Virus record (IMG/VR): IMGVR_UViG_3300017706_001457
Location: 1-46,022 of that record
From: a virus
Length of the DNA: 46,022 nucleotides
Strand: one strand, 5' to 3'
The notes beneath the pieces are model-generated. The model was given only the letters and a program-made list of their open reading frames with translations, had not been told where the DNA came from and did no database searches. The position numbers and the translations under genes are program-made. Positions 4,286 through 38,397 of the stretch are shown piece by piece. Numbering within the stretch: the first letter of the stretch is position 1; the number at the start of each line of letters is the position of its first letter.

Positions 4286-5665
4286 TTATTGTTTATTTAG
4301 TTCAAAAAATTTCTTTTTCATTTCACTTCTATCATATTTATCAATCCCACTAAAACTATTAGTTTGTGGGGTTGAAGTATTATCATCTTCATCATTATTA
4401 CCTTCCTGATATAGTTCATTTGAAACTTCAAAATGACCTGTTGATGTATCAGCTTTTACTCCAAATGTTAAACCATCCATACCATATCTATTTTTCATAA
4501 TATGGAATCTTCCAGTTCCTTCTACTTTATCTTTACGTTGTCTAGAAAGAGAAATACAAACATCTGTAATCATTATTTTATCATATGATCCAGCTGCTTT
4601 ATCTCCCTCAACAATATTATCTTTAGCACCAGCTCTATTTACTTGAGAAACACTCCAAACAGGAATATCTAATTCACGAGCTAATCCTTTTGTACTAGTA
4701 TAAATATCATCAATTTCACCTTTTCTATCAACAGTTTTTCTTTTTGAAGAAAGAAGATCTACATAATCAATAATTATTAAATCTGGTTCAATTCCTGTGT
4801 CTTTAACTTTTTGAATGTGTGCCTCTATAGTAGACATTGTTGCTTTTCCTGTTGGAAATTCTTTAATAATTAAATTTCCTTTTAAATCCCCCATTATAGA
4901 TTCAATTCTATCTTTATGTTTTTGAATTTTATCTACACTAATTTTAGAAAAATAAGCATCATATCTTCTTCCTACATATTGTTCACCTAATTCTAAAGTA
5001 TAATGTATAACATTATACCCAAATTTAACAGCATGCCCTCCTAAAGCAACTAATGACCAAGATTTACCACCTCCTGGATTACCAAATATAAGACCAAAAT
5101 CTCCATTTCCGAGGCCTCCTTGAAGTAATTGATTAATTTTATCCCAAGGGGTTTTAATTGTTGTTCTACTATCTTCTCTATATCTTGATTCAACATCTTT
5201 AGTATATTCATGTCCTATATTTTTATCTTGTCCTGCTTTAATAGCATTATTAATTAATGATCTAATAGATTCATAATCCCCTCCTTTTAATAAATCAACA
5301 CTTTGTAATAATGCTCCTTTTAATTGTTGATTTTTACAAAATGAAGAAAACTCTTCCTGAATATATTTTAAATCATCATTAGAAGTTCTATATGCTTCCT
5401 TAAGTTGTTCTTTTATAGATATTTGAAGAACTTCATTACCACATTTTTGTAATTCTACAGCTAATATCTCCATTGAGGGTGTAGTATGATATTTATCATA
5501 ATACCTTAAAATTTCCTTAATTATCCATTTATGAGCTTGATTATCAAAATATTCTTCACTTAACATATCATTTATGTTAACTAAAAATTCTTTATGGGTT
5601 AATAAAGAAGATAATACTTTTATCTGAAATCCAGTACCATAGGAGTTTAAGTTTGTTAATGTCAT
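4286..5665 (-). CDS. 41: Replicative DNA helicase, DnaB family (T4 gp41-like)
   Basis: This 459-aa protein has a helical N-terminal domain (about 1-150) and a RecA-fold helicase core. It shows a Walker A motif GNPGGGKS (about 195-202), a catalytic glutamate in HYTLELGE (about 225), a Walker B motif LIIIDYVDLL (about 295-305), a polar VWSVSQVNRAG segment (sensor/motif H3) and an arginine-containing segment KNRYGMDG near the C-terminal part of the core. This is the DnaB/gp41 family of hexameric 5'-3' helicases that unwind DNA at the fork. The C-terminal 60 residues are acidic and low-complexity and may be a loader or SSB contact. The start follows the RNase H gene by 4 bases, consistent with one replication operon. 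Confidence 0.9.
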   Translation of the reverse strand: MTLTNLNSYGTGFQIKVLSSLLTHKEFLVNINDMLSEEYFDNQAHKWIIKEILRYYDKYHTTPSMEILAVELQKCGNEVLQISIKEQLKEAYRTSNDDLKYIQEEFSSFCKNQQLKGALLQSVDLLKGGDYESIRSLINNAIKAGQDKNIGHEYTKDVESRYREDSRTTIKTPWDKINQLLQGGLGNGDFGLIFGNPGGGKSWSLVALGGHAVKFGYNVIHYTLELGEQYVGRRYDAYFSKISVDKIQKHKDRIESIMGDLKGNLIIKEFPTGKATMSTIEAHIQKVKDTGIEPDLIIIDYVDLLSSKRKTVDRKGEIDDIYTSTKGLARELDIPVWSVSQVNRAGAKDNIVEGDKAAGSYDKIMITDVCISLSRQRKDKVEGTGRFHIMKNRYGMDGLTFGVKADTSTGHFEVSNELYQEGNNDEDDNTSTPQTNSFSGIDKYDRSEMKKKFFELNKQ

Positions 5666-5669
5666 ATAA

Positions 5670-6701
5670 CTATTTTTTTATAACTAAATTTTCAAAGCAA
5701 TCTTTAACCCAAAATTCAACATTTCGAATTAAACCACCTATTTGGTCTTCATTATACATTGCTATAAATTGGTCTGGATGATATGGAAGTTCTTTTGAAG
5801 ATACAACCTCATTTAACCATTCCTTATCTTCTTTACTTAACATGGGATTACTTAAATCCATTATTTTATAATTTTTTTCTAAATCATCTTGACCATGAAT
5901 TATTCTTGCATACACAGCATGATCCGACATTTTATTCTCACAAATATCTAATATATCATCCCAATCCATATCTCTTTCTATTAATTCAGGGAATTTTTTT
6001 AACAATCCTTTTTCACCTAATCCCTTAACACCTTTAATTTTATCAGAATTATCACCTAATAAAGTTTTATGTAAAATAAAATTATGGGGAGACATTTTAT
6101 ATTTATCCATTACAGTTTTTGGAGTATAATATTCTTTTTCCATAGGGCGATATACAATAACATTTTCACTAACTAATTGTAGAAAATCTTTATCTGATGA
6201 TATAATAAATGATTTATCTTTAGGATGAGTAATAACAGATTTACTTAAATATGCTATAATATCATCAGCTTCAACTTTATCAATACTTACTGTTTTAACA
6301 GGTAATGTTTTTAAATATTGAATAATTCTAACCATTTGATCCACTTTAGCATCATCCTCATCATCCTTATCATCAAAAGCATCCCAATTAGTAATACGTT
6401 GTAAATCTCTACCTGATTTATATTCAGGCATAATATTTTTTCTATTATTAGCTGATCCTGCTCCATCAAATACTACATAAACTTGTGTAGGATTAATTTG
6501 GCGAATCATAGCTCCTAAAGAGCGAAAAAATCCACCTAAACCTCCAATATGGATACCTAAGGGATTTACCATGTTTAATACAGCGAAATTCCTAAAAAAT
6601 AGATTTAAACCATCTATAAATAAAATTCTTTCGTGAGTCTCAGTCTCTGGGCCTTGTTCTTGGATGTTATCCAAGAGCTTAAATAGTTCTTTCTGTTTCA
6701 T
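5670..6701 (-). CDS. rnh: RNase H / 5'-3' exonuclease of the FEN family (T4 Rnh-like)
   Basis: This 343-aa FEN/PIN-fold nuclease probably removes RNA primers from Okazaki fragments. Acidic metal-binding motifs occur in order: LFIDGLNLFFRNF (Asp30), VVFDGAGSANNRK followed by MPEYKSGR, VEADDIIAYL, and SSDKDFLQLV. A helix-three-turn-helix DNA-binding motif follows (GDNSDKIKGVKGLGEKGLLKKF). The length is close to T4 RNase H (305 aa) with an N-terminal extension of about 25 residues. It lies between uvsX and the helicase gene; the 52-base gap to uvsX holds a perfect-looking hairpin (6715-6747). Confidence 0.9.
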   Translation of the reverse strand: MKQKELFKLLDNIQEQGPETETHERILFIDGLNLFFRNFAVLNMVNPLGIHIGGLGGFFRSLGAMIRQINPTQVYVVFDGAGSANNRKNIMPEYKSGRDLQRITNWDAFDDKDDEDDAKVDQMVRIIQYLKTLPVKTVSIDKVEADDIIAYLSKSVITHPKDKSFIISSDKDFLQLVSENVIVYRPMEKEYYTPKTVMDKYKMSPHNFILHKTLLGDNSDKIKGVKGLGEKGLLKKFPELIERDMDWDDILDICENKMSDHAVYARIIHGQDDLEKNYKIMDLSNPMLSKEDKEWLNEVVSSKELPYHPDQFIAMYNEDQIGGLIRNVEFWVKDCFENLVIKK

Positions 6702-6753: not shown

Positions 6754-7827
6754 TTATTGTGGTTCTTCTCCAAAAGATGTTATATCGGTATAGGCTTGAT
6801 CTTCTTCAACTACTCTAAAATCACCACCACCTAAAATAGCAGCCCAATCATCTTTTCTTGCGTCTTTATAACCTTTTAATTCTCTGTCATTATCATTAAT
6901 AAATCCATGAGGGGTCATTACAATTTTACCTCTAGTAGTAACACCATTAATATGATTTTTATCAATTTGAATATTTACTCTTTTAGCAAATTCAACCTGT
7001 TTACCATCCTTAATAGCTTTAATCTTAGAAGTTCCAGCTGACATAACATTACCAAATGTAACTACAAATGTTGAATCAAACCACATTGCATAACCACCTT
7101 TATTCATTAATTTAGGTTGCCCCATTGGAGATTCTGCTTTTAACGTCCAAACTTTATTAATACATACAAGTGTATTAGTATATGGAGACGATTCTTTACG
7201 TGACAGTGTAATACGTTGATTTACACTATTACCAAACTGGGTTGACATAGCACCTGCGTTCCATTCATTGTTATTTTTATTTGATTTAATTGACATTTCA
7301 CAAGGTACTGAGCCAATTGAATCCCACAAAAATAATAAATCAAAAGGTAAATTTCCTTTCTTTTGTTCATCCATTAAATCTAAAATAAATCCAGCTACAT
7401 CTTCAATAGAATTAATAGTTTCTCTATCTACATAAATAAAATTACCATCATAATTAGTAATTTCACCTGTTTTTTTATCAACAACTTCATTAACTTCCAT
7501 ACCCATCATTTTAGCATGATCCCAAGACCATTTCATTTCTGTAATAATGAATACAGGCATTATACCTCGTTTTTGAGCTGCAACTGCAGCTTCTAAAAGT
7601 GCTGTGGTTTTACCTGTATCTGAATGTCCTCTAAGAAGTACAATATGACCCATAGGAATACCTGGAATAGAAGTAACATCTTGAAACGCTGATGATAATG
7701 GAATCCATTCTTGTTCCTTAAATTTAACATTTTGTTTTAATCCTTTTTTATCTTTAAAGGCATTTAAATCAAATTTAGATCTAAGTTCTTTGGAGGCAGC
7801 CTCCGTAAGTGATTTTCTTTTCGCCAT
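6754..7827 (-). CDS. uvsX: RecA-like recombinase (T4 UvsX-like)
   Basis: This 357-aa protein is a RecA/Rad51-family strand-exchange ATPase used in T4-type recombination-dependent replication. Walker A is GHSDTGKTT (residues 67-75), followed by the helix ALLEAAVAAQKRG and the strand FIITEMKWSW carrying the catalytic Glu. Walker B is LLFLWDSIGS. The start MAKRKSLTEA lies two bases after the SSB gene stop, so SSB and UvsX, which work together on single-stranded DNA, are translated from adjacent cistrons. The acidic C-terminus (VVEEDQAYTDITSFGEEP) resembles UvsX tails. Confidence 0.93.
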   Translation of the reverse strand: MAKRKSLTEAASKELRSKFDLNAFKDKKGLKQNVKFKEQEWIPLSSAFQDVTSIPGIPMGHIVLLRGHSDTGKTTALLEAAVAAQKRGIMPVFIITEMKWSWDHAKMMGMEVNEVVDKKTGEITNYDGNFIYVDRETINSIEDVAGFILDLMDEQKKGNLPFDLLFLWDSIGSVPCEMSIKSNKNNNEWNAGAMSTQFGNSVNQRITLSRKESSPYTNTLVCINKVWTLKAESPMGQPKLMNKGGYAMWFDSTFVVTFGNVMSAGTSKIKAIKDGKQVEFAKRVNIQIDKNHINGVTTRGKIVMTPHGFINDNDRELKGYKDARKDDWAAILGGGDFRVVEEDQAYTDITSFGEEPQ

Positions 7828-7829
7828 AT

Positions 7830-8657
7830 TTAAAATGGTAAATCATCATCAGTTGAAGACTTTTTATCATCAAATAATGAATCAAATTTATCTGATTTTG
7901 AAGTTGTGTCTTTTCCTTCAAGTGAATAATTGTTAGATTTTTCTCCATCAAAAGCTACTGCTGGTTCTGAAGAAATTGAACCTTCTTCTTCACCTTCTGG
8001 TTGTAAAAATGATTCTAAATTAGATTTTACTTCATCAAAAGTAAGTCTTTTAAATACATTTTTAGGATCTGGTTGATCATCTAATACTTTAGAAACTAAA
8101 GATGGATCTGTACTAATTGGTGAAGTACTCATTGATGGAGATATAGTTGTTTTATTATAAGGAGTTCCTGTTACTTCAGGTCCTACTGTAGTTAATTTAA
8201 TATCTCTACCTGCTGATGGTTCAGTATAATCACCAACTTCTGAGTCAGCTGCTAAATTTAAAAATGCTTGATAAACTTCTTTACCAAATTGCCATAATTT
8301 AACACCCTGATCTTCTTCACCTCTTACAACTACAGGAGCAAAAATACGAGTTTTAGCATCTAATTTTTTAGCTAAATACCAATTTTCTTTATCTCCACTA
8401 TCACGTAATTGTTTTGTAAATTCTTGAATTGGGTCTTTTTCACCCCAATTCATTGGAGAGGCCATTACTCTTTGACCTATACCATAGTAAAACATCATTT
8501 CTGTAAATGGGAATGATTTATTATATTTGTTAGGAACAATTCTTATTTGTTGTTTACCTATAGATGGCTTCCAAAATAATGATTTTCCGCCTCCTTTATT
8601 TGAGTTTGATTGTGTTTGAAGTGACTCTAACTTCTGTTTGATTTGGTTTAAATCCAT
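7830..8657 (-). CDS. 32: Single-stranded DNA-binding protein (T4 gp32-like)
   Basis: This 275-aa protein has a short N-terminal helix (cooperativity region), a Gly/Lys-rich stretch then LFWKPSIGKQQIRIVPN, which matches the start of the gp32 OB fold, and FAPVVVRGEEDQGVKLWQFGKEVYQAFLNL, matching the gp32 core strands. The C-terminal 80 residues are acidic and serine-rich and end DDDLPF, very like the protein-interaction tip of bacterial SSB. There is no cysteine in the protein, so the zinc site of T4 gp32 is absent; the equivalent loop reads ASPMNWGEKDPIQEF. It is the first gene behind the flavobacterial-type promoter at 8700-8731, at the head of the replication operon. Confidence 0.85.
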   Translation of the reverse strand: MDLNQIKQKLESLQTQSNSNKGGGKSLFWKPSIGKQQIRIVPNKYNKSFPFTEMMFYYGIGQRVMASPMNWGEKDPIQEFTKQLRDSGDKENWYLAKKLDAKTRIFAPVVVRGEEDQGVKLWQFGKEVYQAFLNLAADSEVGDYTEPSAGRDIKLTTVGPEVTGTPYNKTTISPSMSTSPISTDPSLVSKVLDDQPDPKNVFKRLTFDEVKSNLESFLQPEGEEEGSISSEPAVAFDGEKSNNYSLEGKDTTSKSDKFDSLFDDKKSSTDDDLPF

Positions 8658-8699: not shown

Positions 8700-8731
8700 C
8701 AAATTTATAAAACAACCAAACTATAGTTCAA
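8700..8731 (-). promoter_or_regulatory. Putative host-type (flavobacterial) promoter for the replication operon
   Basis: On the coding strand, TTG (8731-8729), a 21-base spacer and TAAATTTG (8707-8700) match the flavobacterial consensus TTG-N17-23-TANNTTTG. It lies 42 bases before the gp32-like gene and overlaps the 3' end of the preceding gene. The late motif is absent here, which fits early or middle expression of SSB through NrdA. Confidence 0.5.
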
Positions 8732-9194
8732 TTATCTTATGAATTTTTGTTTTCAATTGCTTTAACTCATCATGTTGAGTTAAAAGTACTGAATTTTTAT
8801 AATGTTCCCAAGTTATAGGGAACTTAGTATCAACTACACCACCATTTAATTTTTTAATTAGTTCATTTAAAGCATTAATAGTATAAAGTGTATTTGTTTC
8901 TTTTTTTCTATGTACTAGAATAGTATTTTCTGGTAGATCTGATATATTACCTTGATCGATATTATAAGTGCATACATACTCATCATTTGACTTAATATAC
9001 AAAACAAATATCTTATTATACATAATATTATATTTACCTGTAATAGTACTTAGAAGATTTTCTAAATTTTCTAAGGTTGTAAAAGTACAAAATAACTTAT
9101 TATTCAAATCTCCTAAATTTTGGTTAGTAATGTCTGAAAAATCATCCATTGTATACATATTAGAAGTTTTATTTAAAATTGTAATTGTTTCCAT
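8721..9194 (-). CDS. Unknown protein overlapping the polymerase gene
   Basis: This 157-aa protein is not recognised. It is rich in Asn, Thr and Leu, with a predicted alpha/beta pattern (CTFTTLENLENLLSTI, KIFVLYIKSNDEYVCTYNI) and a C-terminal helix HDELKQLKTKIHKIIEL. There is no membrane segment or obvious catalytic motif. Its ATG lies 26 bases inside the end of the polymerase gene, so translation is probably coupled and the two proteins may act together. A polymerase accessory factor, such as a processivity or exonuclease partner, is possible by position only. Confidence 0.6.
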   Translation of the reverse strand: METITILNKTSNMYTMDDFSDITNQNLGDLNNKLFCTFTTLENLENLLSTITGKYNIMYNKIFVLYIKSNDEYVCTYNIDQGNISDLPENTILVHRKKETNTLYTINALNELIKKLNGGVVDTKFPITWEHYKNSVLLTQHDELKQLKTKIHKIIEL

Positions 9195-10428
9195 AGCACG
9201 TTTTTATTTGTAATTTATGTTTACTAAATAATTTTTTTATTTCACCCAAAACACCAACTTCTTCTTTACTAACATCAAATAAAAATGAATCATAAGTGTA
9301 TAAAACCAATTTAGTTTTTTTATTTTTTAATAACTTTATTATTTCCCACAATATATGAACATTCATTGCTGTCTCCAAATTTTGTAGTAAATAATTTAAT
9401 AATTTTTGGGGTTTCATTTCATCTAATTTTTCTTTTACAAATCGATGTTTTGAAATAGGACACTCTACCCAGCCTTTTTCCTTAAACTCTTTCCATAGAT
9501 TATCAGTATATACTTGAACTTTTTTAAAAAATTCTAAATGTTTATATTGATCAAATACTCCTCCATATAGTTGTTTAAATGTTAATTCTTTTGCTTTTTT
9601 ATATTCAACTCCATACATTTCCGCAAAGGCAGTATGAATATCTTTATTACCAAAATCATAACCCACCAACTTAGCCAACAAAGTAGGGTGATAAGCACCA
9701 ATATCAAACTCAATAAAGCTATCATTACGGGGAATAAAACTTTCTCTACTATTGTTTTCTTTATTAAGTGCCGCATAATTTACTCCTTTAAATTTATTAC
9801 TTGGTCTTCCTGTAAGGGTTTTAAAGTTGTATTGCGTGTAGATGTATTCTCCATCGATAGGGTGAAAATGCGATTCAAATTTTTCTCTATTAACTCGTAT
9901 GCCACTTCTTTCAATGGAGTTGAATACCATTGATAATTTATTATTGTAGAATTCATTGATTGGTTCATTTATTTTATCTTTAAGGTTATTATATATTTCT
10001 TCACAATACTCATAATGTTTTACTATAGGTATTATTTTATTTATGTCTTTTTTATTTGGGTGTCTTTTATTAAATATGTTATGTGTTTGTAATAATTCTG
10101 GTATATATGGAGGATTTTGTTGGTTAATGTCAAAGAGGCCTTTTATTGGTAAATAATGTAAAAATTCTTTTTTATCTCGTACATATATGTTATTAAATTT
10201 ACATAACATTGTGTTTATATCCGTTATATTTACATTTAAAGTTTCACTATGGTGCAGTGGCACAATAAAACCTTTAGTTGATTCTAACGGTCTAATATAC
10301 AAAGCACAAATATCATTTTGTGAAGGATGAATTAAATAACTATTTGGAATTATTTCTATAAAAACATTTTTCCAATTAGCGTTTGAAAATTGTTCAAATT
10401 GAACTTTACTTTCAACTAACCAAAACAT
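9169..10428 (-). CDS. Compact family A (PolI-like) DNA polymerase with degenerate exonuclease region
   Basis: This 419-aa protein carries the family A polymerase signature in the right order. A thumb/palm entry SIERSGIRVN (171-180) is followed by TLTGRPSN...N (205-217). Motif A is EFDIGAYHPTLLAKLVG with Asp242, the O-helix/motif B is KKAKELTFKQLYGG (277-290), and LLNYLLQNLETAMN follows (343-356). Motif C is YTYDSFLF with Asp380, where family A normally has HDE. The N-terminal 150 residues have traces of the RNase H-fold proofreading domain (IYVRDKKEFLHYLPIKGLFD) but no DxE metal motif, so proofreading is probably lost. It is much smaller than E. coli PolI (928 aa) or T7 polymerase (704 aa). 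T4-like phages normally use the family B enzyme gp43; whether this phage also has one cannot be seen here. Confidence 0.8.
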   Translation of the reverse strand: MFWLVESKVQFEQFSNANWKNVFIEIIPNSYLIHPSQNDICALYIRPLESTKGFIVPLHHSETLNVNITDINTMLCKFNNIYVRDKKEFLHYLPIKGLFDINQQNPPYIPELLQTHNIFNKRHPNKKDINKIIPIVKHYEYCEEIYNNLKDKINEPINEFYNNKLSMVFNSIERSGIRVNREKFESHFHPIDGEYIYTQYNFKTLTGRPSNKFKGVNYAALNKENNSRESFIPRNDSFIEFDIGAYHPTLLAKLVGYDFGNKDIHTAFAEMYGVEYKKAKELTFKQLYGGVFDQYKHLEFFKKVQVYTDNLWKEFKEKGWVECPISKHRFVKEKLDEMKPQKLLNYLLQNLETAMNVHILWEIIKLLKNKKTKLVLYTYDSFLFDVSKEEVGVLGEIKKLFSKHKLQIKTCYGNNYNFK

Positions 10429-28447: not shown

Positions 28448-31400
28448 TTATTTTTTCTTTAATTCATCAACTTCGGCTTTTAGTTCTTTAACAGCTTCAA
28501 TTAATACAGCTACTAATTTATCGTATTTAACCGCCTTATAACCATTAGCTCTAGTTGTAACTAATTCTGGAAATACTGATTCTATTTCTTGTGCTATAAC
28601 ACCTATATCTGATCCTTCATTAGCATGTATAGCTTTTGTTTTATTAGCTTCAAATTCTAACCAATCAAATTTAATACCATTCATCATTATTACTTTATCT
28701 AAGGCATTTGGTATATTTATAATATTTGTTTTTAATCTTCTATCTGATGTCGCAAATGCTATAACATCATTTTCAGCTTGAATCAAACCATCAGTTGTTG
28801 ATGAAGTTCCTAATGCTAATCCTACATTTAATTGTTCAACATTTAATAATCCAGAAGTATCTTGAAATTTCATATCATTTGATCCTCCTGCTGTACCTCC
28901 ATCATTGTATAAAACTTGAGTATTTGAACCCCCTACTGGACCTGTTGTACCTGTTATACCTTGGATACCTTGTGAACCTGTACTACCTGTACCTGTTGTA
29001 CCTTGAACACCTTGTGTACCTGTAGTTCCTTGTGAACCTGTAGAACCTCCTCCACCTGTAGCACCTTGAGTACCTGTTGTACCTTGTGAACCTGTTCCTC
29101 CTGCTCCTCCTGTTGTACCTTGGATACCTTGTGAACCTGTTCCTCCTGCTCCTCCTGTTGTACCTTGGATACCTTGTGAACCTGTACTACCTGTACCTGT
29201 TGTACCTTGAACACCTTGTGAACCTACTCCTCCATCATCACCTACAGTACCTTGAGTACCTTGAGTACCTGTAGTTCCTTGTGTTCCTTGTGTTCCTGTA
29301 CCACCTGTTGATCCATTATTACCAGCTACACCCTGTTTACCTTGTTTACCTTGAACACCTTGTTTACCTTGTTTACCTTGAACACCTTGTCTACCTTGAA
29401 CACCTTGTACACCTACAGGAATAAACATTATAACTACTGCTTTTCCATCAGCTGGTAAGGCACCATCAGCTCCATCTACTGTATAAGCAACTTGGTTACT
29501 TGCAGTTGATCCTATTTCCTGAATATTAAATCTACAATATATAGTCATATCAGTTGCACCCGTAATTATTAAAGACCCATGATTGTTAGTTTGACCATAA
29601 TCATCAAAAGTTTCTAAATAATCACCTACATTATTACCATTAGCATCTACGTCATTTATGTATACTACTGAAACACTACCTAATGATGCTTCATTAAAGG
29701 CAATTCCACCTGATATTGCACTACTTTGAGCTCCACCTTTAAATGAAAATTCAATTCCTCCTTTATCACCTGTTGTACCTGTTACACCTTGAATACCTTG
29801 AGTACCTGTAGTTCCTTGTGCACCTGTTCCTCCATTATTTCCATTTGTACCTTGAATACCTTGAGTACCTGTAGTTCCTTGTGCACCTGTTCCTCCTGTT
29901 CCCCCAGGATCACCTGTTATTCCTTGAATACCTTGTGTACCTGTAGTTCCTTGTACACCTGTACCTGTTACACCTTGAATACCTTGTGAACCTGTAGATC
30001 CATTTGAACCTGCTGCACCTTGTTTACCTTGAATACCTTGAGTACCTGTAGTTCCTTGTGCACCTGTACCTCCATCTCCACCTGTTATACCTTGAATACC
30101 TTGTGAACCTGTTCCTCCTGTTCCACCTGTTGTACCTGTTGTACCTTGAGTACCAGTTATACCTTGTGTACCTTGAGTACCTGTAGCTCCTTGTTTACCT
30201 TGAATACCTTGTGTACCTGTAGTTCCTTGTTTACCCTGTGCACCTTGAATACCTTGAATACCTTGAGTACCTGTTATACCTTGAATACCTTGAGAACCCG
30301 TTCCTCCAGTAGTACCTGTTGTTCCTTGTTTACCTTGAACACCTTGTGAACCTGTATTTCCAGTAGTACCTGTAGCACCTTGTGTACCTTGTGAACCTGT
30401 TCCTCCTGTTCCACCTGTTGTTCCTTGTTTACCTTGAATACCTTGTGTTCCTTGTTTACCTTGAACACCTTGAGTTCCTGTAGTTCCTTGTCTACCTTGT
30501 ATACCTTGTGTACCTGTTGTTCCTTGTTTACCTTGGGTACCTTGAGTACCTGTATCTCCTTTATCACCTGTAGTTACAAATGATACTATTACTTCTTCAC
30601 CATTACTAAATGGAGCTACTGCTGATGACGCTTGTGAAGCAATATTAATTATCCACCATCCTGTTTGATCTTCAAGATCTGATATTGAAAATAGTATAAA
30701 TTGAGCTGCATCATCTTTGTTAGATATTCTAACATGACCTTTTACAGCAGATGTAACAGCATCTATTGAGGTCATAAATGATGAAATGTCATTTCCATTT
30801 TCATCTAAATCATCAATATACATATTACCTGCTGAAGCTTGAGTTGCTGATGATAATCTAACATCTCCTGCTCCTGGATCTGATGAAGCAGTTGATGTAT
30901 CAAAAGTATAAAAGAAAGTAGCACCACCAAAATTTCCATCTGTTCCTTGTGTACCTAATGTACCTTGTGTTCCTTGAGTTCCTTGTGAACCTGTAGTACC
31001 TTGAGTACCTGTTGTACCTTGAGTACCTGTAGTTCCTTGTTTACCTTGTGTACCTTGTGAACCTGTTCCTCCTGTTGTTCCTTGTTTACCTTGAACACCT
31101 TGTGAACCTGTATTTCCAGTAGTACCTGTAGTACCTTGTGTACCTTGTGAACCTGTTCCACCAGTATTACCTGTTGTACCTTGTATTCCTTGAATACCTT
31201 GTGCACCTGTTGTTCCTTGAATACCTTGTGTACCTGTAGTTCCTTGTGAACCTGTTGTACCTGTTCCTCCTTGTTTACCTTGTACACCTTGTGTACCTGT
31301 AGTTCCTTGAACACCTTGTGTACCTGTATTACCTGTTGTACCTGTTGTACCTTGAGTACCTGTAGTTCCTTGTTTACCTTGTGTACCTTGTGAACCTGTT

Positions 31401-32830
31401 CCTCCTGTTCCACCTGTTGTTCCTTGTTTACCTTGAACACCTTGTACACCTTGTGAACCTGTTCCTCCTGTGTCTCCTGTTATACCTTGTACACCTTGTG
31501 AACCTGTTCCTCCTGTAATTCCTTGAATACCTTGAGTACCTGTAGCACCTTGTGTTCCTTGTGAACCTGTTGTACCTGTTCCTCCTTGTTTACCTTGTAC
31601 ACCTTGTGTACCTGTTGTTCCTTGTTTACCTTGAGTACCTTGAGTACCTGTTGTACCTTGAATACCTTGTATACCTTGTGAACCTGTTGTACCTGTTCCT
31701 CCTTGTTTACCTTGTACACCTTGTGTACCTGTAGTTCCTTGTTTACCTTGAACACCTTGTACACCTTGAACACCAGTTGGTATAAATTCTAAAACACATA
31801 TTTCTCCTGCAGATGGTAAAACCCCAGTTATGTAAGATAAATCAACAGTAAACCAACCTGTATTGTTAGTTACACTTCCTTCAACAGTAAATATTGCATA
31901 AGTATCATCATCATTAGTGTTAGACTTAATAACTAATGTACCTCTATTACTAGATATACCTAAATCATCCCAAGTTAAAATATAATTTCCAACATTAGCC
32001 CCATCATCTGTAGTTTGATTTATGTAAAGTTCGGTAACTGATCCTATTGTACCATTATTTAACCTAAAGTCTCCTGAACCTGGATTTGCTGCTGAAGTAT
32101 TTGCTTCAAACCCATACAATAGTCCACCTTTATCTCCTTGTGTACCTTGAATACCTTGAGTACCTTGAATACCTTGAATACCTTGTGAACCTGTTCCTCC
32201 TGTAGTCCCTTGTTTACCTTGTACACCTTGAGTTCCTGTTGTTCCTTGTTTACCTTGAGTACCTTGAGTACCTGTTGTACCTTGAATACCCTGTATACCT
32301 TGTGAACCTGTTGTACCTGTTCCTCCTTGTTTACCTTGTACACCTTGTGTACCTGTTGTTCCTTGTACACCTTGTGTACCTGTAGTTCCTTGTGTTCCTT
32401 GTGAACCTGTTGTACCTGTTCCTCCTTGTTTACCTTGAGTACCTTGAGTTCCTGTTGTTCCTTGTTTACCTTGAGTACCTTGAGTACCTGTTCCTCCAGT
32501 ATCACCTGTTATACCTTGAATACCTTGAGAACCTGTTGTACCTGTTGCCCCTTGTTTACCTTGAACACCCTGAATACCTTGTGTTCCTGTAGTTCCTTGA
32601 ATACCTTGTGCACCTGTAGCTCCTTGTTTACCTTGTACACCTTGTGTACCTGTAGCTCCTTGTATACCTTGGACTCCTTGTAATGATAAATCAGTTCTGT
32701 ATTTTAAAGCCCCACCATTATTAACAACAACAATTTTGCTTTCACTAGATCCCTCGGGAATACCAGATCCTGTTATTTGATTTAGAATAGCGTTTGATCC
32801 GCTAACTATTACTTTTTTCCAATTTGGCAT
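28448..32830 (-). CDS. Giant collagen-like tail fibre with C-terminal S74 (endosialidase-type) chaperone
   Basis: This 1460-aa protein starts MPNWKKVIVSGS, shared with the 630-aa fibre. Long Gly-X-Y collagen-like runs (GTQGIQGTTG-type, about 51-235, 351-630, 756-1020 and 1139-1296) alternate with three related globular domains (about 236-350, 630-755, 1021-1138; each begins GG, then a YxF-type strand, and includes an LYIN/MYID-like segment). The last 99 residues form a peptidase S74 intramolecular chaperone: SDRRLKTNI (Ser1362, Lys1367), FDWLEF, GVIAQEIESVFPELV, YDKLVAVLIEAVKEL. That domain trimerises the fibre and cuts itself off before Ser1362 in known members. The product is probably a long trimeric collagen-like fibre for host recognition. 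Confidence 0.85.
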   Translation of the reverse strand: MPNWKKVIVSGSNAILNQITGSGIPEGSSESKIVVVNNGGALKYRTDLSLQGVQGIQGATGTQGVQGKQGATGAQGIQGTTGTQGIQGVQGKQGATGTTGSQGIQGITGDTGGTGTQGTQGKQGTTGTQGTQGKQGGTGTTGSQGTQGTTGTQGVQGTTGTQGVQGKQGGTGTTGSQGIQGIQGTTGTQGTQGKQGTTGTQGVQGKQGTTGGTGSQGIQGIQGTQGIQGTQGDKGGLLYGFEANTSAANPGSGDFRLNNGTIGSVTELYINQTTDDGANVGNYILTWDDLGISSNRGTLVIKSNTNDDDTYAIFTVEGSVTNNTGWFTVDLSYITGVLPSAGEICVLEFIPTGVQGVQGVQGKQGTTGTQGVQGKQGGTGTTGSQGIQGIQGTTGTQGTQGKQGTTGTQGVQGKQGGTGTTGSQGTQGATGTQGIQGITGGTGSQGVQGITGDTGGTGSQGVQGVQGKQGTTGGTGGTGSQGTQGKQGTTGTQGTTGTTGNTGTQGVQGTTGTQGVQGKQGGTGTTGSQGTTGTQGIQGTTGAQGIQGIQGTTGNTGGTGSQGTQGTTGTTGNTGSQGVQGKQGTTGGTGSQGTQGKQGTTGTQGTTGTQGTTGSQGTQGTQGTLGTQGTDGNFGGATFFYTFDTSTASSDPGAGDVRLSSATQASAGNMYIDDLDENGNDISSFMTSIDAVTSAVKGHVRISNKDDAAQFILFSISDLEDQTGWWIINIASQASSAVAPFSNGEEVIVSFVTTGDKGDTGTQGTQGKQGTTGTQGIQGRQGTTGTQGVQGKQGTQGIQGKQGTTGGTGGTGSQGTQGATGTTGNTGSQGVQGKQGTTGTTGGTGSQGIQGITGTQGIQGIQGAQGKQGTTGTQGIQGKQGATGTQGTQGITGTQGTTGTTGGTGGTGSQGIQGITGGDGGTGAQGTTGTQGIQGKQGAAGSNGSTGSQGIQGVTGTGVQGTTGTQGIQGITGDPGGTGGTGAQGTTGTQGIQGTNGNNGGTGAQGTTGTQGIQGVTGTTGDKGGIEFSFKGGAQSSAISGGIAFNEASLGSVSVVYINDVDANGNNVGDYLETFDDYGQTNNHGSLIITGATDMTIYCRFNIQEIGSTASNQVAYTVDGADGALPADGKAVVIMFIPVGVQGVQGRQGVQGKQGKQGVQGKQGKQGVAGNNGSTGGTGTQGTQGTTGTQGTQGTVGDDGGVGSQGVQGTTGTGSTGSQGIQGTTGGAGGTGSQGIQGTTGGAGGTGSQGTTGTQGATGGGGSTGSQGTTGTQGVQGTTGTGSTGSQGIQGITGTTGPVGGSNTQVLYNDGGTAGGSNDMKFQDTSGLLNVEQLNVGLALGTSSTTDGLIQAENDVIAFATSDRRLKTNIINIPNALDKVIMMNGIKFDWLEFEANKTKAIHANEGSDIGVIAQEIESVFPELVTTRANGYKAVKYDKLVAVLIEAVKELKAEVDELKKK
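28940..32690 (-). repeat. Collagen-repeat DNA, four blocks
   Basis: About 2.6 kb of this span encodes Gly-X-Y triplets from near-identical 9- to 36-base units (on the plus strand, permutations of accttgtgtacctgtagtt). The three globular domains interrupt it near 31784-32125, 30568-30950 and 29416-29770. Such sequence is prone to slippage and recombination, so repeat number may vary between isolates. Confidence 0.85.
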
Positions 32831-37025: not shown

Positions 37026-37691
37026 TTAATGGTATCCGTTTAGTAATTCTAATAATTCATCTATTGAATCATGTCTATGATTATCTTGTAAAATACATTT
37101 ATATACATATTTAGAATTTATTAATTTTGCCATATCATGATATGCTGAATAGTTTTTATCTTTTAAATCCATTTGATAAGAATCTCCACAAAATAACATT
37201 TTTGAGTCTTTTCCTAATCTTCCAATAGCCATTGCTAGTTGTGATCTAGTTAAATTTTGAAATTCATCTACTATAACAATAGAATTATCAAATGTACGTC
37301 CTCTAAAATGAGCTAATGAAACTAATTCAATTGACTCTTCTCTTTCCATTCCATTTAAAATATCAGGTTTATTATATACTTTACGCATATTAGATCTAAT
37401 AGGAACTAACCAAGGTTCCATTTTTTCTCTTTCTGATCCTGGAAGAAAACCATTGTCTTCAGTTGAAATAGTAGGTCTTGTAATAATAATTTTATTACAT
37501 TGTCTTTTAAAAAATTGATCTAAAGCTATTTGTACTGCTAATAAGGTTTTTCCACTACCTGCTTTTCCAACTATAAAATTAAAAGGGTGTTTTAATATTT
37601 CTGTTTTAGCTTTTTTTTGTTCTTCTGATAATGATAAAGAAAATCTAATTGATCCTTTAGGTGGTGTTTTAGCTATATTTTTTTTAGGCAT
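37026..37691 (-). CDS. phoH: PhoH-like ATPase
   Basis: This 221-aa P-loop ATPase has Walker A GKAGSGKT (42-49), the conserved ITRPTISTEDNGFLPGSE segment, the middle GRTFDNSIVIVDEFQN with Walker B, and LFCGDSYQMDLKDKNYSA, all typical of PhoH. PhoH genes are frequent in marine phages; the cellular role is still unclear (RNA-related or phosphate-stress ATPase). Its start overlaps the end of the PSD-like gene by 8 bases, so it is translated with it. Confidence 0.92.
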   Translation of the reverse strand: MPKKNIAKTPPKGSIRFSLSLSEEQKKAKTEILKHPFNFIVGKAGSGKTLLAVQIALDQFFKRQCNKIIITRPTISTEDNGFLPGSEREKMEPWLVPIRSNMRKVYNKPDILNGMEREESIELVSLAHFRGRTFDNSIVIVDEFQNLTRSQLAMAIGRLGKDSKMLFCGDSYQMDLKDKNYSAYHDMAKLINSKYVYKCILQDNHRHDSIDELLELLNGYH

Positions 37692-38397
37692 AATTTATTT
37701 TAATTAATTTATCTAACCCTGCATTAACATGCATTGTTTCTTCTAATAAGATATCAAATGTAAATCTTTCATCCAAAGGTAAAACTAAATCAACTTGAGA
37801 ACCCCATCTAATTAAACTAAATCTTTCATTTTGTGTGCAAAGTTCACCTTGTTTTTTAAAAGGAGCTATTACATTTACATCTTCATCTGCAATTTGTATT
37901 ATATGGTATGTGTAATCTAATGAAGGTATATAAACTTTATTAGACATTCTTTCATTAAACTTTAAATAATCCATATTATTTGGATTAATTACTTTGTTTA
38001 ATATATCTTTTTCAACAGCTAACATAGGTTTATTAGTAGATTCAATAGGTTCTAAATTTTTATATTTTAAAATCCCACCGTAAGGAATTCTATTAATATG
38101 AACATCATAAAAAGACATAAATATTCCTATTACTAAGGAGGGTTGATTGTAATCTTTATCACCCATTACATCTTGAATTGTATAATCTATACCTTTAATT
38201 TCAAGTACTTGTTCACCAGGTAATACCATTTTTTGATATAAAATAGTTCCATCTGCTGGGCTATAAAAATGTTCATTATCTATATAAGTAGGTCTTATTG
38301 GGTCTCTAAAGAAAAAAGTATTACTTAATTCTCCAACTGACATTTTAGATAATTCTTTTACTTCTCCATTTAACCAATCTTCTAATTTTTCAGCCAT
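37684..38397 (-). CDS. psd: Phosphatidylserine decarboxylase-like pyruvoyl enzyme
   Basis: This 237-aa protein carries the PSD family signature SPADGTI (Asp49), FMSFYDVHINRIPYGG (His100) and the self-cleavage region LIRWGSQVDLVLP, with Gly199-Ser200 as the predicted site where the pyruvoyl group forms. Asp49, His100 and Ser200 match the Asp-His-Ser residues known to be needed for processing. It lacks an obvious N-terminal membrane segment. Known members turn phosphatidylserine to phosphatidylethanolamine; some act on related serine lipids or soluble serine compounds. Its ATG overlaps the stop of the guanidino enzyme by 1 base, so both are probably made together, hinting at a shared pathway. 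Confidence 0.85.
   Translation of the reverse strand: MAEKLEDWLNGEVKELSKMSVGELSNTFFFRDPIRPTYIDNEHFYSPADGTILYQKMVLPGEQVLEIKGIDYTIQDVMGDKDYNQPSLVIGIFMSFYDVHINRIPYGGILKYKNLEPIESTNKPMLAVEKDILNKVINPNNMDYLKFNERMSNKVYIPSLDYTYHIIQIADEDVNVIAPFKKQGELCTQNERFSLIRWGSQVDLVLPLDERFTFDILLEETMHVNAGLDKLIKINYA

Follow-up and report, generated by a model that had tools for sequence, protein, structure and literature searches.

Gene content of the window

The window analyzed here is a complete IMG/VR record of 46,022 bases (IMGVR_UViG_3300017706_001457), which has no end repeats and is therefore probably a fragment. An open reading frame (ORF) starting with ATG on its minus strand (positions 9169–10428) encodes a family A DNA polymerase of 419 aa that has a truncated thumb and a dead exonuclease; it was assigned to divPolA1 on the basis of Pfam, PHROG, AlphaFold2, Foldseek, VIA-align and hhalign. 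The gene is the first of a fixed cassette on the same strand and is followed there by genes for a 157-aa partner protein (8721–9194), a gp32-like single-strand DNA binding protein (SSB; 7830–8657, Pfam gp32, E = 6.5e-13), a UvsX-like recombinase (6754–7827, Pfam RecA, 3.6e-7; phrog_97, 1.6e-13), a 5'-3' exonuclease of the FEN / T4 RNase H type (5670–6701, PF02739, 1.7e-33) and a DnaB-type replicative helicase (gp41; 4286–5665, phrog_19, 2.5e-80). In all 14 loci where 5 kb or more follows downstream, the cassette was complete. The original prediction of a small family A polymerase without proofreading inside a T4-like replication cassette, which gave no strand, is thereby borne out, and inspection of the translation placed Asp242, K277–G290 (KKAKELTFKQLYGG) and Asp380 (YDS) at the predicted positions.

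Homologues were compared across 281 loci, six of which had no match to a four-sequence profile. A sequencing frameshift masking a longer N-terminus is unlikely, because the homologues are of the same length: 247 of the 275 proteins matched had at least 380 aa, and none exceeded 465 aa. After the 28 matches shorter than 380 aa were excluded and identical proteins merged, 214 sequences were left, to which four named proteins were added to give the set of 218 used below; some loci share one contig and are therefore partly non-independent. Each of three IMG/VR pattern scans yielded at least 563–591 confirmed relatives, and the divPolA1 family is common.

Other genes were also observed in the window. 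A phosphatidylserine decarboxylase homologue (37684–38397; PF02666, 2.5e-25) adjoins PhoH and an unknown 304-aa ORF (phrog_12759), and the relative G007 has both, with 88% identity. Positions 28448–32830 encode a 1460-aa collagen-like repeat protein, whose GTQGIQG repeats are probably the reason for the long out-of-frame ORFs in this region.

Family A fold and degenerate exonuclease domain

The Pfam DNA_pol_A model matched the window polymerase at E = 1.5e-4, below the curated cut-off, and phrog_17 matched it at 9.6e-8. Because DNA_pol_A matched just 47 of 98 family members at E 0.01, ordinary annotation overlooks approximately half of the family. An hhalign comparison of the divPolA1 profile with one single PolA sequence was uninformative (probability 0.5); we therefore used a profile of five canonical PolAs (E. 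coli, T7, Nibbles, P23-45 and immuto gp199), with which the profile–profile alignment reached a probability of 98 (E = 1.5e-13). The AlphaFold2 model, for which the input was the 98 window and locus proteins, had a pLDDT of 94.1 and a pTM of 0.90. Foldseek searches against the PDB retrieved the apicoplast polymerase and the Klenow fragment (E about 1e-16), and the best VIA-align match was the Bst Pol I large fragment (Z = 26.3, rmsd 3.5, 373 residues aligned). The top Bst rows aligned 373–394 of the 419 residues, from end to end.

The structural alignment with Bst (model residues 1–419 versus Bst 300–876) covers the N-terminal domain (approximately residues 1–155; 9964–10428, minus strand), for which a structure prediction had been proposed, and assigns it a degenerate exonuclease fold. 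Traces of this fold, as originally claimed, are accordingly seen in structure but not by sequence, as hhalign found no match between the N-terminal profile and the canonical exonuclease domain (probability 0.4). The further claim that the metal-binding DxE is missing held: the motif is absent from the N-terminal strand, and the weak profile alignment placed no acidic residue at D355 or E357. The 3'-5' exonuclease of this protein is inactivated.

Conserved catalytic residues and a truncated thumb

Alignment and profile register located motif A at residues 240–250 (9679–9711), motif B, or the O helix, at residues 276–290 (9559–9603) and motif C, YTYDSF, at residues 377–382 (9283–9300), all on the minus strand. 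With Pol I numbering on the left, the register reads D705=D242, E710=H247, R754=Y276, K758=K280, F762=F284, Y766=Y288, Q849=Q349, H881=Y379 and D882=D380. D242, H247, K280, Y288, Q349, Y379 and D380, together with R208 and N217, were invariant in all 218 aligned sequences, and position 276 was Tyr in 196 and Arg in 20 of them. All five canonical PolAs had E710, R754 and H881.

The thumb would lie at residues 177–205 (9814–9900, minus strand). Between the palm motif and TGR, E. coli Pol I has about 125 residues and the phage Nibbles enzyme 127; the corresponding span of all 218 homologues was 17–37 aa (about 30). divPolA1 retains the catalytic residues of the palm and has a truncated thumb, in the AlphaFold2 model as well. 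When the gene was compared with those of 25 close relatives, the median dN/dS was 0.166 (range 0.124–0.206), and purifying selection acts on the polymerase core with its catalytic residues.

An overlapping partner protein

The first 26 nt of the partner ORF (8721–9194, minus strand) are shared with the 3' end of the polymerase gene. A homologue of the partner was found on the strand of the polymerase in 246 loci, where its start relative to the polymerase stop was negative in 105 (one of which lay far upstream by ORF call), within 200 nt in 50, at 200–2500 nt in 90 and farther in one. Overlapping or nearby, its length ranged from 126 to 172 aa. Among loci with more than 2.5 kb downstream, the only one without the partner was L159, where the polymerase match was partial (162 aa); for polymerases of 380 aa or more followed by no less than 2.5 kb of sequence, the partner was present in 188 of 188 loci. 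Starting from the partner, we found the polymerase in 77 of 80 loci in one set (3 untestable) and in 71 of 80 in another (9 untestable), so that no testable locus out of 148 lacked it; untestable loci were those whose partner was uncalled or lay close to the end of a contig, and the two sets share some contigs. A tblastn search of 50,697 phage records placed both proteins in the same 6 records, which represent only three lineages.

Eleven partner positions were invariant in an alignment of 90 sequences, all eleven held in one of 200, and dN/dS was 0.061 (26 pairs). Searches of Pfam, PHROG and NCBIfam assigned the protein to no family, all matches having E values of 0.04 or higher. Judged by the order of its elements, the predicted structure looks ferredoxin-like; the pLDDT is 81 overall and about 92 in the core, with residues 1–30 modelled poorly. 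Foldseek retrieved no PDB entry under E 0.001 (best 0.085), and in BFVD the only match under the same threshold was one uncultured Caudovirales protein of the same kind (3.5e-13). The best VIA-align score, Z = 6.3, was below the trust level, and these rows include the origin-binding domains of polyomavirus T antigens.

Second polymerase, clamp and loader in relatives

The polymerase had been proposed either to replace gp43 or to be one of two polymerases of the phage. The former is wrong, since close relatives encode a family B polymerase (PolB) besides the small PolA. In G001 (84 kb) and G002 (95 kb), whose small PolA is 85–87% identical to that of the window, and in the colinear G007 (158 kb; 67% identical), PolB lies far from the small PolA. 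The G007 enzyme is split in two: a protein of 556 aa contains the exonuclease and palm (phrog_262, 2e-116), and a second one has 310 aa (3e-48). Clamp-like (gp45-like) and gp44-like genes lie nearby, and a DnaG-type primase is encoded elsewhere.

This gp43-type PolB occupies two ORFs in G007 (85170–87769, equivalent to L173:5170–7769), G001 (50149–52751) and G002 (53179–55781). The ORFs overlap by 4 nt, and the cut is identical in the three genomes, directly before motif C, and YxDTDS lies shortly after the second ORF begins. A split polymerase of the RM378 type was considered and rejected: RM378 has PolB, and there was no match to the 777-aa PolA of immuto described below. Near the main polymerase locus, queuosine-type genes (QueC, QueD, QueE, FolE and DpdA, by immuto annotation) were observed at L035:18607–37015 and at 87762–95764 of G007, suggesting 7-deazaguanine-modified DNA.

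PolB matches were also present in Mel-JY01, for which no paper was found by that name, and in LR756508, where they lie at 260623–266900 in two frames (1022 and 625 aa) several kb apart, which suggests an insert or a split. Among 12 further large contigs, PF00136 was found in 10, the exceptions being G034 and G036; in a set of 19 records, most of which are fragments below 70 kb, it was found in five, one of which (G025) is a bacterial bin with several matches. PF00136 had no match in immuto, which encodes a 777-aa PolA (gp199) at a second locus while its small PolA keeps its place. The second polymerase of G001, G002 and G007 (split PolB) and that of immuto (PolA) share a GroES/GroEL-adjacent neighbourhood.

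The gp44 loader was found in 15 of 19 records searched, and in none of immuto, the window, G034 and G036; a three-clamp profile found no clamp in immuto. The phrog_223 clamp test matched 7 of 19 records and missed G001 and G002, whose clamp orthologues were recovered by blastp and a profile; because phrog_223 is insensitive, clamp absence by this test alone in Mel-JY01 and LR756508 is weak. As PolB is replaced by the 777-aa PolA and neither gp44 nor the clamp was found, the main polymerase and its loader look to have been exchanged together in immuto, and the small PolA stayed.

The 46-kb window contains no regular DNA polymerase, including no match to PF00136, and this fragment does not include the second locus. 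The proposed search for gp43, clamp and loader genes thus recovered gp43-type PolB, clamp and gp44 in relatives, and neither PolB nor gp44 in the window itself. The presence of two polymerases holds for the relatives, in the form of PolB or the 777-aa PolA, and probably extends to the phage of the window, for which we infer it from these relatives.

DISCUSSION

Accessory or main polymerase

We consider it probable that this divPolA1 member is an accessory family A polymerase that works beside the main polymerase, most likely in short-tract synthesis with SSB, UvsX and FEN. The main polymerase is encoded at another locus, as family B in most relatives tested and as family A in immuto. Because both thumb and proofreading are absent, divPolA1 should be distributive. 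It would most likely add short tracts on SSB-coated gapped or recombination intermediates, filling gaps after primer removal by FEN and/or extending UvsX-paired 3' ends, and would in effect constitute the polymerase half of Pol I, with the 5' nuclease encoded separately. Two observations favor gap filling: divPolA1 stays in place where the main polymerase belongs to a different family, and its cassette includes a 5' nuclease and no proofreader. However, this role is suggested by the neighbours, and a replicative polymerase would have the same ones. Indeed, it is the "regular" polymerase whose functionality is called "less obvious" by Yutin et al. (2024; PMC11348598), who suggest a part for divPolA1 in replication; this counts against an accessory reading. 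The placement of divPolA1, unlike the other polymerase, in the conserved replication cassette and the failure to find PolB in the 46-kb window would likewise suit a sole or main replicative enzyme that has replaced gp43, yet colinear relatives encode a split gp43-type PolB with an exonuclease domain, a clamp and gp44, and the loss of thumb and proofreading also speaks against such a role, which we regard as highly improbable.

Lack of proofreading, a reduced thumb and the neighbouring UvsX could also indicate a polymerase for translesion synthesis or damage tolerance that UvsX/SSB filaments recruit; as the steady company of FEN and the helicase suits replication equally, this seems rather unlikely. 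Since all members have His in place of the steric-gate Glu (E710), the enzyme might instead use ribonucleotides for primer or RNA synthesis. H247 in 218 of 218 sequences, against Glu in all five canonical PolAs, is consistent with this idea, and PMC11348598 raises the possibility that members of another group, divPolA2, act as RNA polymerases; however, a bulky His may still exclude the 2'-OH and relatives encode a DnaG-type primase, so that we think it improbable. Slightly less credit is due to a catalytically silent polymerase fold acting as a structural loader: the equivalent of R754 is mostly Tyr (196/218) and that of H881 always Tyr (218/218), whereas both catalytic Asp residues and the Lys and Tyr of the O helix are invariant in all 218 sequences.

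For an accessory polymerase of this kind, the partner would provide support. The overlapping protein would bind the polymerase or its DNA and so replace the grip lost with the thumb. A bolder possibility, which we hold to be doubtful, is that divPolA1 is obligately paired with its partner as a two-subunit DNA polymerase, the DNA grip of the thumb having moved to a separate ferredoxin-like protein, and that such a split polymerase hand is widespread in aquatic phages. SSB, UvsX, FEN and helicase are as constant as the partner where testable, so constancy alone is no proof of a complex. The strict pairing with an uncharacterised protein nevertheless offers a direct handle on how a polymerase lives without its thumb, and the invariant His gate makes a testable prediction about sugar selection. 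For this phage group, the small PolA is an extra, stable component, and the replicative polymerase and clamp loader seem to be the parts that are exchangeable.

Comparison with known polymerases

The overall fold, palm, fingers and motifs of the window polymerase are those of Klenow-type Pol I (E. coli, Bst). It differs from these enzymes in lacking about 95 thumb residues, in E710 being H and H881 being Y, and in the loss of the exonuclease residues; Bst Pol I likewise has no known exonuclease activity. The thumb subdomain and the motif A Glu (E710) that characterize canonical Pol I are absent from divPolA1. T4 gp43 belongs to another polymerase family, family B, and relatives of the window have a gp43-type enzyme as well, encoded apart from divPolA1; the genomic company of T4 gp43 (SSB, UvsX, RNase H and gp41) is of the same kind.

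According to PMC11348598, divPolA2 of barbaviruses is also a second, exonuclease-less PolA beside PolB, and is set apart from divPolA1 by its description, in which the neighbourhood is variable and the N-terminal domain new. The same article describes divPolA1 in 14 phages, including immuto, as having a truncated thumb, a dead exonuclease and retained catalytic residues; these phages also have a regular PolA, PolB or PolC. Conserved replication genes lie downstream of divPolA1, and the regular polymerase lies near GroEL/GroES. The name divPolA1 was found in the literature only in that article and its preprint. In tblastn the window polymerase matched Flavobacterium phage immuto gp001 with 37.4% identity over 99% of its length (E = 6e-70), and it shares with gp001 the catalytic residues, truncated thumb, dead exonuclease and downstream replication genes. 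No defining feature differs, with the second polymerase seen only in relatives of the window. The main text of PMC11348598 has no words beginning with steric, histidine, clamp or processivity, and the sections examined do not name the partner protein, which Fig. 4b may draw. The present analysis adds the overlapping 157-aa partner, the His in place of the steric-gate Glu and the Tyr in place of the motif C His (218/218), and the loss of gp44 together with PolB in immuto.
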